Shown here: positions 50,742 through 56,960 of the stretch, piece by piece
Layout: each line of letters starts with the position of its first letter
Position numbering within the stretch: position 1 is the stretch's first letter
Assembly (NCBI GenBank): GCA_947626685.1
Contig: CANQTD010000003.1
Location: 1-64,000, forward strand
Direction of reading: 5' to 3'
DNA: 64,000 bases
Source: an uncultured Clostridia bacterium
GTDB lineage: Bacteria; Bacillota; Clostridia; Christensenellales; Borkfalkiaceae
Position numbers and translations under genes: made by a program
The notes under the pieces: model-generated
Database searches by the model: none
The model's input: the letters and a program-made list of their open reading frames with translations, nothing else
What the model was told of the DNA's origin: nothing

Positions 50742-50770
50742 TTGCTTTTCCGCCCGAAATATGCTATACT
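50742..50770 (+). promoter_or_regulatory. Promoter of structured RNA copy 1
   Basis: TTGCTT (50742-50747), 17-base spacer, TATACT (50765-50770). The predicted start (about 50,777) coincides with the first bases of the closing stem of the RNA. Confidence 0.75.
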
Positions 50771-50776
50771 CATCCT

Positions 50777-50934
50777 ACCACACAAATTGAATACAAACAG
50801 GCAAACGGATCCACAATCAGGCATTGCGTATCTCTTTTTTCCGTTTGTCTTAAATGTGAATTATCAATTTGTGTGGTAACAAATTCGGAGATACCATGCA
50901 AGTGTGTTTCCGGATTTGGAAACACACTTTTTTT
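50777..50934 (+). ncRNA. Structured RNA, copy 1 of an unnamed two-copy family (sRNA or leader)
   Basis: About 158 bases. Closing stem P1: TACCACACAAATTGA (50776-50790) with TCAATTTGTGTGGTA (50864-50878), 15 bp perfect. Inner stem P2: AGGCAAACGG (50799-50808) with CCGTTTGTCT (50841-50850), one G-U. The apical loop contains ACAATCAG, then GTATCTC (50828-50834) and a U6 run; GTATCTC is perfectly complementary to GAGATAC (50888-50894) 3' of P1, giving a pseudoknot. An 11-bp terminator hairpin AGTGTGTTTCC/GGAAACACACT (50901-50928) with seven T follows. The SD of the lipoprotein gene (50,948) starts right after the terminator, so this may be an attenuating leader; a free sRNA is equally possible. 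Copy 2 lies at 56.5 kb. Confidence 0.7.
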
Positions 50935-50947
50935 ATGGAGGTATCCT

Positions 50948-52057
50948 ATGCAACACTTTTTCCAAAACAAATTCGCCCAAAAATTGGCGGAAAAATGGGC
51001 GCGCCTTATGGCGTTCCTGCGCGGCAGCCTCATGCGGCGGATCGCCTCGCTCGCGCTTGCGGGCATGATGGCCGTCCCCGTTACGTTCGCTTTGGGCGCG
51101 TGCACGATCATCGGAAATCCCGACGGCTCGATCACGATCGGCCCCTCCGGAAGCGGGCAGAGCGGACAGGATCAGCCGCAGGGCGACGGCGGGCAGGACG
51201 GACAGGACGACGGACAGCAGGATGACGGCGAGATCGATCTCTCCCAGTTCAGCGAAATTTTACAGAATGTTTTGACGAGCAATTATTATAAGGAACTTTG
51301 TGAGATAAAGAAGGATAGCATAACTTTGGGCGAAGAATATCTTCAAATCCCTTCCGGATTTTTGAAGCAAGAGGGATACGACTTGAATCTGTATTATTAC
51401 TATACAGAGTCATGGTTAGAAGTCGATAGCGACGTGTATTTTTTGGGCGACGACCATACGAATCTGTACATTGCGTGCAGAATCGAGAGCGAGCACCCGC
51501 AGGGGAACTATTATACCTGCTATGTCCTGCAATATGAACTGACGGAGCAGGAGTACAGCGATCTGGAACTTCTGCACAAGGGCCGATATGTGCAGGCGCC
51601 CTTCTTTATTCAGGAATTGACCTATGAAAAACAGCCGGTAAACGTCAGCAAAGCGAGCATAAACAAAGATACTTATAATGACATGATAAAATTAGTGAAT
51701 ATGCTCCACAATGTATTCCGAGACAAACGCTTTGAACTTGATTTTATGGGGTACCAGCCAACAACCGAGAATTTCTCGTTCACTTTTGCAGTGAGGAGCG
51801 CGCCATCACTACCTGGTGGTAATAGTAATTATAGACCTATGATCGACGATGGCGCGGAGTTGCGATACCTTACCACCGATGTTTCCAAAAGTATTATAGG
51901 TCCTCAACTTTATGGAGATAATGTGTTTTACGGAGATTTTGGCTTATTGGCCGGCAACCCACATAGAGAAGAATACGAAGTCAGCCAACCGATCACCTAT
52001 TTTGAATCGGATGGCTGTCGGGTGAATAACCAAAAACCGTGGCTTTACCAACCATAG
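50948..52057 (+). CDS. Putative lipoprotein, function unknown
   Basis: 369 residues from the ATG at 50948 (SD GGAGGT, 5 bases). A long basic N-region precedes a hydrophobic stretch and lipobox (FALGAC, Cys52). Residues about 58-105 are a Gly/Gln/Asp-rich linker (GQSGQDQPQGDGGQDGQDD), and the rest (about 110-369) is a Tyr-rich globular domain I do not recognise. The linker DNA is G+C-rich like its neighbours while the globular part is noticeably richer in A+T, which may indicate a fused or imported module. Directly downstream of structured RNA copy 1 and its terminator. Likely surface-exposed. Confidence 0.75.
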   Translation: MQHFFQNKFAQKLAEKWARLMAFLRGSLMRRIASLALAGMMAVPVTFALGACTIIGNPDGSITIGPSGSGQSGQDQPQGDGGQDGQDDGQQDDGEIDLSQFSEILQNVLTSNYYKELCEIKKDSITLGEEYLQIPSGFLKQEGYDLNLYYYYTESWLEVDSDVYFLGDDHTNLYIACRIESEHPQGNYYTCYVLQYELTEQEYSDLELLHKGRYVQAPFFIQELTYEKQPVNVSKASINKDTYNDMIKLVNMLHNVFRDKRFELDFMGYQPTTENFSFTFAVRSAPSLPGGNSNYRPMIDDGAELRYLTTDVSKSIIGPQLYGDNVFYGDFGLLAGNPHREEYEVSQPITYFESDGCRVNNQKPWLYQP

Positions 52058-52069
52058 ACCGCAAATCAA

Positions 52070-52527
52070 ACGCCACCCCCTCCGTCTCGCTAACACTCGA
52101 CAGCTCCCCCTCAAGGGGGCGCCAAGAGAACGAGAACCCTCATTCCGAACGGAGCGAAAGCGAAGTGAGCGAATCTTTAAGATACGCTCGGCTTCGCCTC
52201 GGTATGAGGGGCCCTTGCTGTCCCCTCTGAGGGTCGCATCAATCCCCCTCGCCCCCTACCCCACCCGCTCTTTTTATCGTCATGTTGAGCGGAGCCCGTA
52301 AGGGCGAAGTCGAAACATATCCTTATTATAATGCGGATACCCATTCGACTACGGCTTGCGCCTCCGCTCAGGGTGACGTGTTTTATAATGCCCCTCATCC
52401 GTCACTCCGTGACACCTTCCCCCCGAAGGGGGAAGGCTTGCCGGCCTGTTTCATAAATCACGTCAACCCCTTTCGGCACTTCGTGCCACTTTCCCCAAAG
52501 GGGACAGCAAGGTGGGAGTGTTTTGGC
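52070..52527. repeat. Intergenic repeat mosaic
   Basis: The 52,058-52,642 gap holds no gene. It contains copies of all four units described at 50.3-50.7 kb plus a CATCCGTCAC...CCCCCGAAGGGGGAAGGCTTGCC unit (about 52,395-52,443; also 54,105, 56,385 and, degenerate, 45,985), then the metK terminator. Confidence 0.8.
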
Positions 52528-53939: not shown

Positions 53940-54308
53940 AATGACACCCCCTCTGTCTCGCTTACGCTCGACAGCTCCCCCAAAGGTGGAGCCAAGAGGG
54001 TTGGTGCGCGGACAGCCCACCCAGAGGTGGAGCCAAGAAAGGCTTCCCCCCGTGGGGGGAAGCTCCCGCGGAGCGGGAGATGAGGGGTGCTTCTAATTAG
54101 AATGCCCCTCATCCGTCACGGCTATGCCGTGCCACCTTCCCCCCTCGGGGGGAAGGCTTGCCCCCTACCCTACCCTCCCCCCTTTTGCAAAACAAAAGGG
54201 GGGAGGCAAAGTGCCCCCTCCGTGGGAGGGGGATTAAGGGGGTGGGGCGGATACTAAAATCGTACCCACCACAGTCACTCCGTGACAGCTCCTCCTCGGG
54301 AGGAGCCT
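53940..54308. repeat. Intergenic repeat mosaic
   Basis: The 53,804-54,330 gap holds the metK promoter and then repeats only: the CTCGCTTACGCTCGACAGCT unit (53,957), CCCCCCGTGGGGGGAAGC palindromes, the CATCCGTCAC unit (54,110), and a unit of about 95 bases from GCCCCCTCCGTGGGAGGGGG to CTCCTCGGGAGGAGCC (54,213-54,308) repeated at about 56,131-56,224. Confidence 0.8.
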
Positions 54309-54330: not shown

Positions 54331-56058
54331 TTATTGATCTTTTACCCACGGGGTCGGCTTATTCGTTGCGGGGTCGTAGTGCCACCAATAATCGTAGCTC
54401 GCCCATTCCTCCGCCGTCGGTTTGTCCTCGGTGAAGTAATAGCGGGTCGCATTAAGGAGAGAAAAATTACGGAAATATGTATTGTTGATAGAAATATTCC
54501 CCCAATCCTCGACGGTTCCTTTATAGAAAACGGCTTTCAGTTTACTACAATTATAGAAAACAAGAACTTTGATTGAGGTCACACCGCTCCCGATCGTCAC
54601 GTTTTCAAGCTCGCTGCAATTTCTGAACGCCTCCTCTCCGATTGAGGTCACACTGTCGGGGATCGTAATACTCGTCAGCCCAATGCAATCCTCGAACGCC
54701 TCATTTCCAATCGAGGTCACGCTGTCGGGTATTGTCACGCTCGTCAACTCGCTACAACCATAGAACGCCCTATCTCCGATCGAGGTCACGCCGCTCCCGA
54801 TTGTTACGCTCGTCAACCCATTGCAATTCTCGAACGCCCCATATCCGATCGAAGTCACGCCGCTGCCGATCGTCACACTCGTCAGCCCGCTGCAACCATA
54901 GAACGCAGAACTTCCAATCGAAGTTACGCTGTCGGGAATCGTCACGCTCGTCAGCCCGCTGCAACCCTCGAACGCACTCCTTCCGATCGAGGTCACGCTG
55001 TCGGGGATTGTAATACTCGTCAGCTTGCTACAACCAAAGAACGCACTATCCGCTATTACTGTTGTATTGGCACGAATCGTATAGCTCCCCGAGATTGTAT
55101 TTTTTGCGTCGATCAAATAATTCCCGATATAGAGAACGCCGCTTTCGTCCCAATTTGAAGAATTGTTGTAGTATGCCGTACCATTGAACGCCGCATTTCC
55201 GATCGAGGTCACGCCGCTCCCGATTGTCACGCTTTCAAGCCCGCTGCAATACAGGAACGCCGCATTTCCGATCGAGGTCACGCCGCTCCCGATTGTCACG
55301 CTTTCAAGCCCGCTGCAACGATTGAACGCACTCCTTCCGATTGAGGTCACGCTGTCGGGAATCGTAATGTTTGTCAGCCCGTTACAATCAAAGAACGCAC
55401 TATCCGCTATTACTTTTGTATTGGCACAAATCGTATAGCTCCCCGAAATCGTCTCTTGTGCTTCAATTAAATAATTCCCGATATAGAGCACGCCGCTTTC
55501 GTCCCAATTTGAAGAATTGTTGTAGTATGCCGTACCATTGAACACATCATCTCCAATCGAGGTCGCGCTGTCAGGAAGCTTAATACTTGTCAGCCCGCTG
55601 CAACCATAGAACGCATCATCTCCGATCGAGGTTACACTGTCTGGGATTGTAATGCTCGTCAGCCCGCTGCAACCCGAGAACGCATACTCTCCAATCGAAG
55701 TCACGCTGTCGGGGATTGTAATGTTCGTCAGTCCGCTGCAATCCTCGAACGCATAAATCCCGATTGAGGTCACGGGAGCACCGTTGAACGTGGCGGGGAT
55801 ATTGAGAGATGTTCCATCGAAATTGCCTTTGGAAACGGTATAGCTTCTTTCATCCTCAGCATAGCTTATTCTATCCCCGTTCAGATCAAAATAGAGCCCG
55901 TTATCGGAATAACCGCCTTTGGGCAACCAGGGTGGTAGCCATTCGCCGCCGAGGCCTTCGGGCGCGATAAGATCGAACAATCCACACGCCGAAAGACTGA
56001 ACGTGAGGCAGAGTGAGGTCACAAATGTGAGCATAATGAGCCAAAGTTTGTGTTTCAT
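54331..56058 (-). CDS. BspA-type leucine-rich repeat lipoprotein
   Basis: 575 residues. Lipoprotein signal peptide (LSAC, Cys25). After a 60-residue head come about 17 BspA/LRR_5 repeats of 23 residues, consensus SVTSIGxxAFxxCSGLTxITIPD. Two copies of a 51-residue interruption (NGTAYYNNSSNWDESGVLYI...) lie 118 residues apart, showing block duplication. A Trp-rich tail ends the protein. BspA-type proteins are surface LRR proteins of gut and oral bacteria and protozoa, in some cases adhesins. SD AAAGGAG, but no promoter directly upstream; the nearest on this strand is that of structured RNA copy 2. Somewhat more A+T-rich than flanking housekeeping genes. Confidence 0.92.
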   Translation of the reverse strand: MKHKLWLIMLTFVTSLCLTFSLSACGLFDLIAPEGLGGEWLPPWLPKGGYSDNGLYFDLNGDRISYAEDERSYTVSKGNFDGTSLNIPATFNGAPVTSIGIYAFEDCSGLTNITIPDSVTSIGEYAFSGCSGLTSITIPDSVTSIGDDAFYGCSGLTSIKLPDSATSIGDDVFNGTAYYNNSSNWDESGVLYIGNYLIEAQETISGSYTICANTKVIADSAFFDCNGLTNITIPDSVTSIGRSAFNRCSGLESVTIGSGVTSIGNAAFLYCSGLESVTIGSGVTSIGNAAFNGTAYYNNSSNWDESGVLYIGNYLIDAKNTISGSYTIRANTTVIADSAFFGCSKLTSITIPDSVTSIGRSAFEGCSGLTSVTIPDSVTSIGSSAFYGCSGLTSVTIGSGVTSIGYGAFENCNGLTSVTIGSGVTSIGDRAFYGCSELTSVTIPDSVTSIGNEAFEDCIGLTSITIPDSVTSIGEEAFRNCSELENVTIGSGVTSIKVLVFYNCSKLKAVFYKGTVEDWGNISINNTYFRNFSLLNATRYYFTEDKPTAEEWASYDYWWHYDPATNKPTPWVKDQ

Positions 56059-56104
56059 GGTTTTTTCTCCTTTTTATATAATTTTTTTGATTTGTAAGAT
56101 GAGG

Positions 56105-56434
56105 GCTGAGGGCCCCTACTTCGTCGCGCTTGCCCCCTCCGTGGGAGGGGGATATGGGGGTGGGGCGGATTATAAAACCGTACCCACCTCAGTCACTACG
56201 TGACAGCTCCTCCTCGGGAGGAGCCAAGATAACCCTCATTCCGTCCCGCACGAAGTTTCTATTTTTTTCTGAGTGCGGCACGAGCGCGGAGCGCGAAGTA
56301 ACGGAGCGAAAGCGAAGTGAGCGAATCTTTAAGATACGCTCGGCTTCGCCTCGGTATGAGGGAAGCTTCCAATGAGAACGCCCCTCATCCGTCACTTCGT
56401 GCCACCTTCCCCCCGAGGGGGGAAGGCTTGCCCA
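56105..56434. repeat. Intergenic repeat mosaic
   Basis: Gene-free. It contains the long GCCCCCTCCGTGGGAGGGGG to CCTCGGGAGGAGCC unit (56,131-56,224), the CTTTAAGATACGCTCGGCTT unit (56,327) and the CATCCGTCAC unit (56,387). It separates structured RNA copy 2 from the LRR lipoprotein gene. Confidence 0.8.
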
Positions 56435-56449
56435 CTACTCTATCCCCGA

Positions 56450-56606
56450 CATAAAAAATAAGGACGTTCCAATATGGAACGCCCGCTCAGAGTATCCCAT
56501 ATTGTCTGCGTCACAATTGAATTTTCCCGGTTTTGCAAGCGGAAAAAAAGGATACACCTACGCTGAGGTTGTAACCACCTGCAAAAACCTATTCAATTGT
56601 GACGCA
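56450..56606 (-). ncRNA. Structured RNA, copy 2 of an unnamed two-copy family
   Basis: About 157 bases. P1: TGCGTCACAATTGAAT (56606-56591) with ATTCAATTGTGACGCA (56522-56507), 16 bp perfect. P2: GGTTTT(T)GCAGGTGG paired with CCGCTTGCAAAACC, 14 bp with one bulge and two G-U. The apical loop has ACAACCTCAG, GTATCC (56555-56550) and U7; GTATCC pairs with GGATAC (56497-56492) 3' of P1. A terminator hairpin CGTTCCA/TGGAACG (56481-56465) with TTATTTTTT follows. Compared with copy 1 the loop motif ACAA..UCAG, GUAUC, U-run, CCGYUUG and CACAA(A)TTGAAT in P1 are conserved, while the pseudoknot changes from GUAUCUC/GAGAUAC to GUAUCC/GGAUAC, a compensatory change. Downstream on this strand is the LRR lipoprotein gene. 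Confidence 0.7.
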
Positions 56607-56611
56607 TTTTC

Positions 56612-56640
56612 AGTATAACACATTCCCGCCGAATTTGCAA
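56612..56640 (-). promoter_or_regulatory. Promoter of structured RNA copy 2
   Basis: Minus strand: TTGCAA (56640-56635), 17-base spacer, TATACT (56617-56612), the same -10 box as copy 1. Predicted start 56,605, the first bases of P1. Confidence 0.75.
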
Positions 56641-56735: not shown

Positions 56736-56960
56736 ATGAAAGAGTTCAACAGGGCGCAATTCGCGGAGCGGCTGAAGGAGTTGCGGGCGGAAAAGAATAT
56801 CGGGCAAAATGCGCTCGCAAAAGTTTTGGGTCTGAGCAATGCCTCTGTCAGCTATTGGGAAACGGGCAAGCAGACGCCCTCGGCGGAAGCCGTCTTTAAG
56901 CTCGCGCTGTTCTTTAACGTGAGCGCGGATTTCTTGCTCGGGCTCAAAGATGATTATTAA
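56736..56960 (+). CDS. Small XRE-type repressor
   Basis: 74 residues, consisting of a single HTH_3 domain: FAERLKELRAEKNIGQNALA...LSNASVSYWETGKQTPSAEA...FFNVSADFLLGL. Such proteins are dimeric repressors, often autoregulatory. Two near-identical palindromes lie directly upstream. There is no SD, and a TATAAT ends 3 bases before the ATG, so either the mRNA is leaderless from a different start site or the promoter lies elsewhere. Its targets beyond itself are unknown. Confidence 0.85.
   Translation: MKEFNRAQFAERLKELRAEKNIGQNALAKVLGLSNASVSYWETGKQTPSAEAVFKLALFFNVSADFLLGLKDDY

Follow-up and report, generated by a model that had tools for sequence, protein, structure and literature searches.

Why would a genome keep two diverged copies of one long RNA hairpin 5.7 kb apart, each with a promoter-like site at one end and a terminator at the other, and each pointing towards a lipoprotein gene? 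The question is raised by the minus-strand RNA at 56453-56640 of the window (the whole stretch of DNA that was analysed, 64,000 nucleotides), which a preliminary description had singled out as the second copy of an RNA also encoded on the plus strand at 50742-50934; the host is likely a gut bacterium. The explanation that we consider best, with a probability of about 0.72, is that the element is a cis-acting conditional transcription terminator, a riboswitch-like attenuator in the leader RNA, a reading that we draw from comparative sequence analysis.

Two diverged copies in one window

The minus-strand copy and its surroundings contain the following features, in the direction of transcription:

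56612..56640, minus strand: promoter-like site, TTGCAA (56640-56635), 17 bases, TATACT (56617-56612); from sequence and consensus scan
56591..56606, minus strand: 5′ strand of stem P1, with the predicted RNA start nearby; from the fold
56529..56589, minus strand: stem P2 and apical region, with the local loop hairpin P3 inside; from the fold
56550..56567, minus strand: pseudoknot loop strands, CUCAGCG..UAGG (PK2) and GUAUCC (PK1)
56507..56522, minus strand: 3′ strand of P1; from fold and sequence
56485..56504, minus strand: shared flank strand CAAUAUGGGAUAC-UCUGAGC, partner of the loop or of the terminator arm; from duplex energies
56453..56484, minus strand: predicted intrinsic terminator hairpin and U tract; from sequence and consensus scan
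56477-56470, minus strand: CCAUAUUG, predicted 3′ strand of the antiterminator, inside the terminator
56066..56448, no strand assigned: mosaic of repeats separating the leader RNA from the gene; the genome (1.78 Mb) has 92 matches to it, counting the mosaic's own
56196-56169, minus strand: promoter-like site in the mosaic, GTGACT-16-TATAAT, 10/12 consensus, directed toward the BspA-type lipoprotein gene
54331..56058, minus strand: downstream BspA-type LRR_5 lipoprotein, 575 aa; Pfam LRR_5, E 2.3e-114

The plus-strand copy is composed as follows:

50742..50770, plus strand: promoter-like site, TTGCTT, 17 bases, TATACT; from sequence; the consensus scan scores it under its cut-off
50776..50878, plus strand: P1-P2 hairpin with loop strands GGCAUUGC (50820-50827) and GUAUCUC (50828-50834); from the fold
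50880..50899, plus strand: shared flank strand CAAAUUCGGAGAUAC-CAUGC; from the antiterminator duplex, -20.9 kcal/mol
50900..50934, plus strand: predicted terminator, picked up by the consensus scan
50909-50918, plus strand: UCCGGAUUUG, predicted 3′ strand of the antiterminator
50948..52057, plus strand: lipoprotein gene, 369 aa from the start used, no Pfam family; from ORF and Pfam scan

The order of parts is identical in the two copies, and both fold far more stably than dinucleotide shuffles (z -5.9 on the minus strand and -8.1 on the plus strand). A TATACT promoter-like site and a terminator can be read in each of them, as had been described; in the minus-strand copy the terminator hairpin occupies 56484-56462 and its T tract 56461-56453. 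The helices had been drawn too regularly: P1 does have 16 bp in the minus-strand copy (56606-56591 paired with 56522-56507), but 15 bp in the plus-strand copy, and P2, taken for an uninterrupted 14-bp helix, is broken by bulges (about 56589-56575 with 56542-56529 on the minus strand). Pairing between the loop and the 3′ flank, which we call PK1, changes on both of its sides, from GUAUCUC/GAGAUAC in the plus-strand copy to GUAUCC/GGAUAC in the minus-strand copy, exactly as first described. On the plus strand, the flank sequence GAGATAC at 50888-50894 is complementary to the loop GTATCTC; on the minus strand, the loop strand GTATCC at 56555-56550, followed by T7, faces GGGATAC at 56498-56492, read from the sequence. 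A second loop-flank segment, PK2, consists of GCAU/AUGC in the plus-strand copy and, in the minus-strand copy, of CUCAG/CUGAG when matched by eye or of UAGG/UCUG plus GC/GC in the computed duplex. As for the loop motif proposed earlier, both copies have GUAUC followed by a run of U, but its ACAA..UCAG portion is weakly conserved in the family.

Blastn with either window copy did not retrieve the other at E 10, and with the minus-strand copy it found four more places in the genome. A covariance model (R1, from 18 RNAs, two of them from this genome) detects both window copies, the other copy at E 6.8e-10. Because the covariance model links what blastn does not, the two window copies are truly diverged members of one family. 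In the whole genome, searched with R1 up to E 1, there are six copies; the remaining two of the eight matches are antisense echoes.

Both RNAs lie before a lipoprotein gene in the same direction (from 50948 upward and from 56058 downward), as the preliminary description stated, and the distances to the genes differ. The start codon of the plus-strand gene is ~14 bases 3′ of the terminator, and 397 bases separate the minus-strand RNA from its gene. That gap holds the repeat mosaic that had been seen before; three or more intergenic repeats that recur across the genome make up its stretch 56113-56445, and parts of it reappear in the window at 52148-52442 and 54080-54307. A consensus scan gave two promoter-like sites in the minus-strand region against 0.5 expected, one being the RNA's own and the other the site in the mosaic. 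The repeats may have imported a bypass promoter, and the gene at 54331..56058 may have escaped control by the RNA. Since the 397-base mosaic carries its own promoter-like site, control by the RNA is less certain here than at the plus-strand copy, and we lowered our confidence in the best explanation from 0.75 to 0.72 on this account. A small gene for an HTH_3 (Cro/C1-type) regulator, at 56736-56960, adjoins the promoter of the minus-strand RNA and is oriented away from it.

The plus-strand copy lies beside metK and is syntenic with copies at three loci of relatives (L017, L019 and L020), among which the RNA core and the terminator are preserved. The protein behind the RNA at L020 is 32% identical to the product of 50948..52057 and that at L017 has a similar beginning; at L019 a different lipoprotein occupies the syntenic position. 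Recognised copies occur at 7 of the 80 metK loci examined. By the metK protein the closest named records are 'Clostridia bacterium' MAGs called Lapin, a name that suggests the rabbit gut, followed at a greater distance by Candidatus Gallimonas, and it is on these that the probable assignment to the Clostridia depends. The ribosome-binding site of the plus-strand gene, GGAGGUAUCC (50937-50950), contains GGUAUC, which could pair with GAUACC at 50890-50895 in the flank. From this complementarity, an extra contact in the plus-strand copy is possible; within the sequence shown for L017, L019 and L020, no contact of this type occurs behind the syntenic copies.

Distribution and downstream genes

The family extends well beyond the genome. 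Of 61 genomes of the genus, 35 contain a pattern built from loop and flank (2 of 61 for the reversed control), and R1 matches 54 of these 61 (E 0.01), with up to 16 matches per genome, echoes included. Wider samples were searched with R1 and with a second model, R2, built from 106 RNAs: R1 matches 75 of 151 genomes of the family sample, in 13 of 18 genera (E 0.001), and 41 of 297 genomes of the order sample (E 1e-5), 26 of which belong to ten families other than the own one, and R2 matches 74 of 391 genomes of the class sample (E 1e-5), 68 from other orders, figures that come from overlapping genus-to-class samples with different filters, stricter at wider levels, and from covariance-model E-values that are rough. 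As a specificity control, R2 was run on a phylum sample of 398 genomes, which also includes class members without a match; it found the own genome only. Plasmid and phage collections searched with one class-level member gave no match, nor did a pattern search of viral contigs.

The hairpin is symmetric, and its opposite-strand echoes were removed before counting. From the matches collected, removal of echoes and of places fetched twice left 113 RNAs, and removal of three identical ones (L184, L131 and L102) left the 110 on which the family statistics rest; the class-level set contains 69 RNAs (70 matches, one removed). Eight tandem arrays were seen (L105, L170, L203, L204, L205, L277, L311 and L312), each before one gene, their units 47 to 149 bases apart. 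Every unit of the five arrays that we inspected has a promoter-like site of its own, so a tandem array is more than a plain series of two switches.

A suitable ORF follows 101 of the 110 RNAs, at a median distance of 36 bases from the model match and within 60 bases in 68 of the 101. A simple pattern finds a lipobox in 62 of these 101 ORFs, and nine have a double zinc ribbon, against 40 and two among 751 random ORFs of related loci, a comparison in which the minimum length was 60 aa for downstream ORFs and 100 aa for the random ones. A Pfam scan of 84 downstream proteins, which omitted 17 of the 101 ORFs (repeats from tandem arrays, one masked stretch, and ORFs far downstream or apparently mis-started), returned 34 LRR_5 proteins of the BspA type, seven with List_Bact repeats, seven with a double zinc ribbon and six with DUF6273. 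In the own genus and family the genes behind the RNA mostly encode predicted surface lipoproteins. In other orders they are mixed, with BspA-like and other exported proteins alongside small soluble proteins that belong to no known family, and the lipobox pattern is found in 3 of the 57 class-level ORFs listed. Because the genes vary in this way outside the family, they do not converge on one pathway from which a ligand could be guessed.

The proteins with double zinc ribbon N-termini (for example MHKCPKCGTEFEGKFCPECG) form a second recurrent class, found at L032, L101, L104, L122, L123, L164, L179 and L185. A protein of 80-120 aa (AKKTIILYVLKMLxxGSS...) also recurs behind the RNA, at L217, L189, L191 and L235, in several genera and two families; for its L235 member, the one scanned, neither Pfam nor PHROGs gave a family at E 0.01. 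A phage theme was considered for the small downstream proteins and dropped on the PHROGs and Pfam results: one of nine distinct proteins had a clear PHROGs match (antitoxin-like) and one a marginal match, and Pfam gave none for four small proteins.

Two pairings for one flank strand

A promoter-like site (TTGnnn-N15-19-T[AG]nnnT) lies close 5′ of P1 in 106 of the 110 RNAs, where base shuffles lead one to expect 9.6; because of this position the RNA should begin near P1, as far as promoter sequence is a guide. P1 has 11-20 bp and P2 mostly 9-16 bp. At the junction between them extra bases occur mainly on the 5′ side, and 71 of the 110 RNAs have no unpaired base on the 3′ side. An [AC]AUA motif lies near this junction in 88 of 110; its service as a hinge is only suggestive, and in the predicted fold of the minus-strand copy it is largely paired. 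In the apical loop stands the local hairpin P3, which is longer than in the shuffled control in 96 of 110 and whose 3′ arm belongs to the pseudoknot strand. A T-rich tract follows the terminator hairpin in 109 of 110, a count made without a separate control. Conservation falls chiefly on pairing strands, and few unpaired bases are conserved. Within a genome the loop core ACA..GUAUC is alike across all copies, and P1 and P2 drift.

The flank strand is complementary to two partners: the apical loop, through the two segments PK1 and PK2, and the terminator, at its 5′ arm and loop. In the minus-strand copy the two computed duplexes have -15.0 kcal/mol (loop pseudoknot) and -16.1 kcal/mol (antiterminator, CAAUAUGG/CCAUAUUG); in the plus-strand copy the antiterminator pairing CAAAUUCGGA/UCCGGAUUUG has -20.9 kcal/mol. 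When the end of P1, the flank and the terminator are folded by themselves, the antiterminator is the best structure in both window copies. Over the family, mean energies are -16.3 kcal/mol for the terminator, -15.7 for the antiterminator and -14.9 for the pseudoknot, and in 109 of 110 RNAs pseudoknot and antiterminator claim at least four common flank bases (median 8).

The preliminary description took two copies whose sequences differ and whose pairing is kept as evidence of selection on RNA structure. We examined this pattern with a swap test, in which each helix is compared with the mean of 25 partners exchanged between RNAs; it uses no alignment, and was chosen because MAFFT misaligns the variable P2. 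P1 pairs better with its own partner than with swapped ones in 110 of 110 RNAs. The antiterminator does so in 109 (whole flank) or 106 (restricted to the first 13 bases) and the pseudoknot in 94 (whole flank and interior) or 99 (restricted), and in the 69 class-level RNAs the counts are 69 for P1, 69 for the restricted pseudoknot and 65 for the antiterminator. Pairing is therefore preserved while sequence changes, and the further copies have not lost P1 or the loop pairing, a loss that had been named as speaking against the family. The 11 to 16 pseudoknots that fail the control do so because PK1 is nearly constant within the genus (one 7-mer pair is common to 59 of 110 RNAs), which also means that pseudoknot covariation lies mostly between clades. 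Other genera have AAAAAU/AUUUUU as PK2, and RNAs from other orders AAAAGGUGU/ACACUUUU; a mismatch-free 4-bp candidate exists in 91 of 110, counted without a control. The best ungapped antiterminator 8-mer has at least seven pairs in 103 of 110 RNAs, with more than 40 different sequence pairs, likewise without a separate control.

An alignment fitted only to P1 and the terminator gave a further view of the antiterminator: the nested columns 193-269, 198-266 and 200-264, which join flank and terminator arm, covary (z 6.6, 6.9 and 3.6), in an analysis that is also high for column pairs outside any helix, such as 212-217 (3% paired), which we take as shared ancestry.

Candidate mechanism, rivals and known systems

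These observations have mechanistic implications. Where evolution has maintained a terminator along with an antiterminator for it, and a gene mostly begins a few dozen bases further on, a conditional terminator is the reading that we prefer. The antiterminator supplies a mechanism where the preliminary description had proposed none; like the second loop-flank segment and the promoter-like site in the mosaic, it had been overlooked. On this mechanism, capture of the flank by the loop would form the pseudoknot and leave the terminator arm free, so that the terminator would fold and transcription would stop. If the flank were left uncaptured, for example when P3 stays closed, it would pair with the terminator arm as an antiterminator and the polymerase would read on. 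The apical loop segment could offer the flank a foothold for opening P3. The direction of the switch, with the pseudoknot as the off state and the antiterminator as the on state, is deduced from topology alone and would hold as far as that model does. Where the gene follows closely, the short gap leaves little room for another promoter, and transcription probably enters the gene by read-through. The family thus shows two of the marks of a riboswitch, a position in cis before a gene (median 36 bases in the sampled family) and evolutionarily kept, mutually exclusive structures tied to a terminator; at the minus-strand copy, with 397 bases and a promoter-like site in between, the position in cis is less certain.

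For the trigger we guess at one small molecule or factor, shared by all copies, that binds the hairpin, since the genome's copies resemble one another in the loop core while their P1 and P2 drift; a set of surface-protein genes would in this way be regulated together. Tentatively, and with somewhat less than even odds, the RNAs could form an unrecognised riboswitch class spread through the Clostridia, with a bent long-hairpin aptamer, strand displacement started at a toehold, and one signal acting on surface and accessory genes at as many as twelve or more sites in a genome. A protein or another RNA that acts on the loop core or P3 and so sets the choice between pseudoknot and antiterminator is possible, if unlikely: it would suit a loop core and flank that stay alike within a genome while P1 and P2 differ, and the scarcity of conserved unpaired bases able to line a pocket, but the architecture spans many orders of the class sample and the factor would have to be equally widespread. 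Doubtful, and more so, is a switch without any ligand, in which folding kinetics, temperature, Mg2+ or polymerase speed would choose between near-isoenergetic states; the three mean helix energies do lie within 1.5 kcal/mol of one another, but such a device has no obvious need for [AC]AUA in 88 of 110 RNAs or for a conserved loop core.

Two further explanations deny the leader its function in cis. The RNA could be a stand-alone gene for a trans-acting small RNA that lies before genes incidentally. Its promoter-like site (106 of 110, and both units of the five tandem arrays) and terminator would serve such a gene well, and a 5′ end within a stem would make for a stable RNA. An RNA that always terminates has no use, though, for an antiterminator kept by covariation, and incidental placement accords poorly with an ORF at a median of 36 bases behind it and a lipobox far commoner than in random ORFs; we hold this explanation improbable, and a second role of the terminated product, in trans, is conceivable. 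Copy number and the long inverted repeat might also suggest MITE-like debris of a mobile element. The P1 sequences, however, differ among copies with their pairing maintained, constant terminal inverted repeats are absent, almost every copy retains its promoter-like site and its terminator, and the plus-strand copy is syntenic in relatives. Nor are there the target-site duplications by which transposon debris was to have been recognised: flanking direct repeats average 6.4 bases against 6.1 in the swapped control (n 107), and they reach 9 bases in 6 of 107 copies, a count without its own control. Debris of this kind is thus a very remote prospect.

If the conditional-terminator reading is true, the family offers a handle on the control of BspA-type and other surface lipoproteins in uncultured gut Clostridia. 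With a loop core common to the copies within a genome, one signal should move the whole set of surface genes, which makes for a concrete ligand hunt. The family is large (74 of 391 class-sample genomes) and displays the full anatomy of a gene switch in its sequence, and it has no Rfam match. At gathering thresholds, Rfam gave no match in the window, only three tRNAs in 20 genus and family loci and none in 20 class-level loci; permissive scans of four members returned scattered sub-threshold matches to unrelated families, the best being mir-3 (E 7.7e-4, 28.8 of 54 bits). Among these, isrD appeared in two members (14.4 and 12.9 of 37 bits), on different parts of the RNA, and was set aside. Open-paper text searches gave no description of such an RNA among the matches listed, as judged by title and start of abstract. 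A large catalogue of unnamed structured RNA candidates from the human microbiome exists (PMC8040213); its main text contains none of 'lipoprotein', 'pseudoknot' and 'attenuat', its supplementary tables lay outside the search, and these tables may hold the family unnamed.

Among known leaders, several invite comparison. The L20 leader (RF00558) combines long-range pairing and a terminator in a Gram-positive leader. It was rejected as an identity for our RNA: one relative of the four scanned permissively gave a match that was full-length and weak, its 21.3 bits falling short of the gathering score, 58.7, and the downstream ORFs listed included no conspicuous ribosomal-protein gene. T-box leaders (RF00230) choose between terminator and antiterminator and occur in several copies per genome, and the family described here resembles them in both respects; no T-box match was obtained at the gathering score in the window or in the loci of 40 relatives. 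The preQ1-I and c-di-GMP-II riboswitches terminate transcription by means of a pseudoknotted aptamer in a leader between promoter and gene. Our family differs from them in having no Rfam match, a far longer hairpin, and surface and accessory genes rather than one pathway behind it; it is predicted to resemble them in its central device, a pseudoknot strand that is shared with an antiterminator and decides whether the terminator forms.
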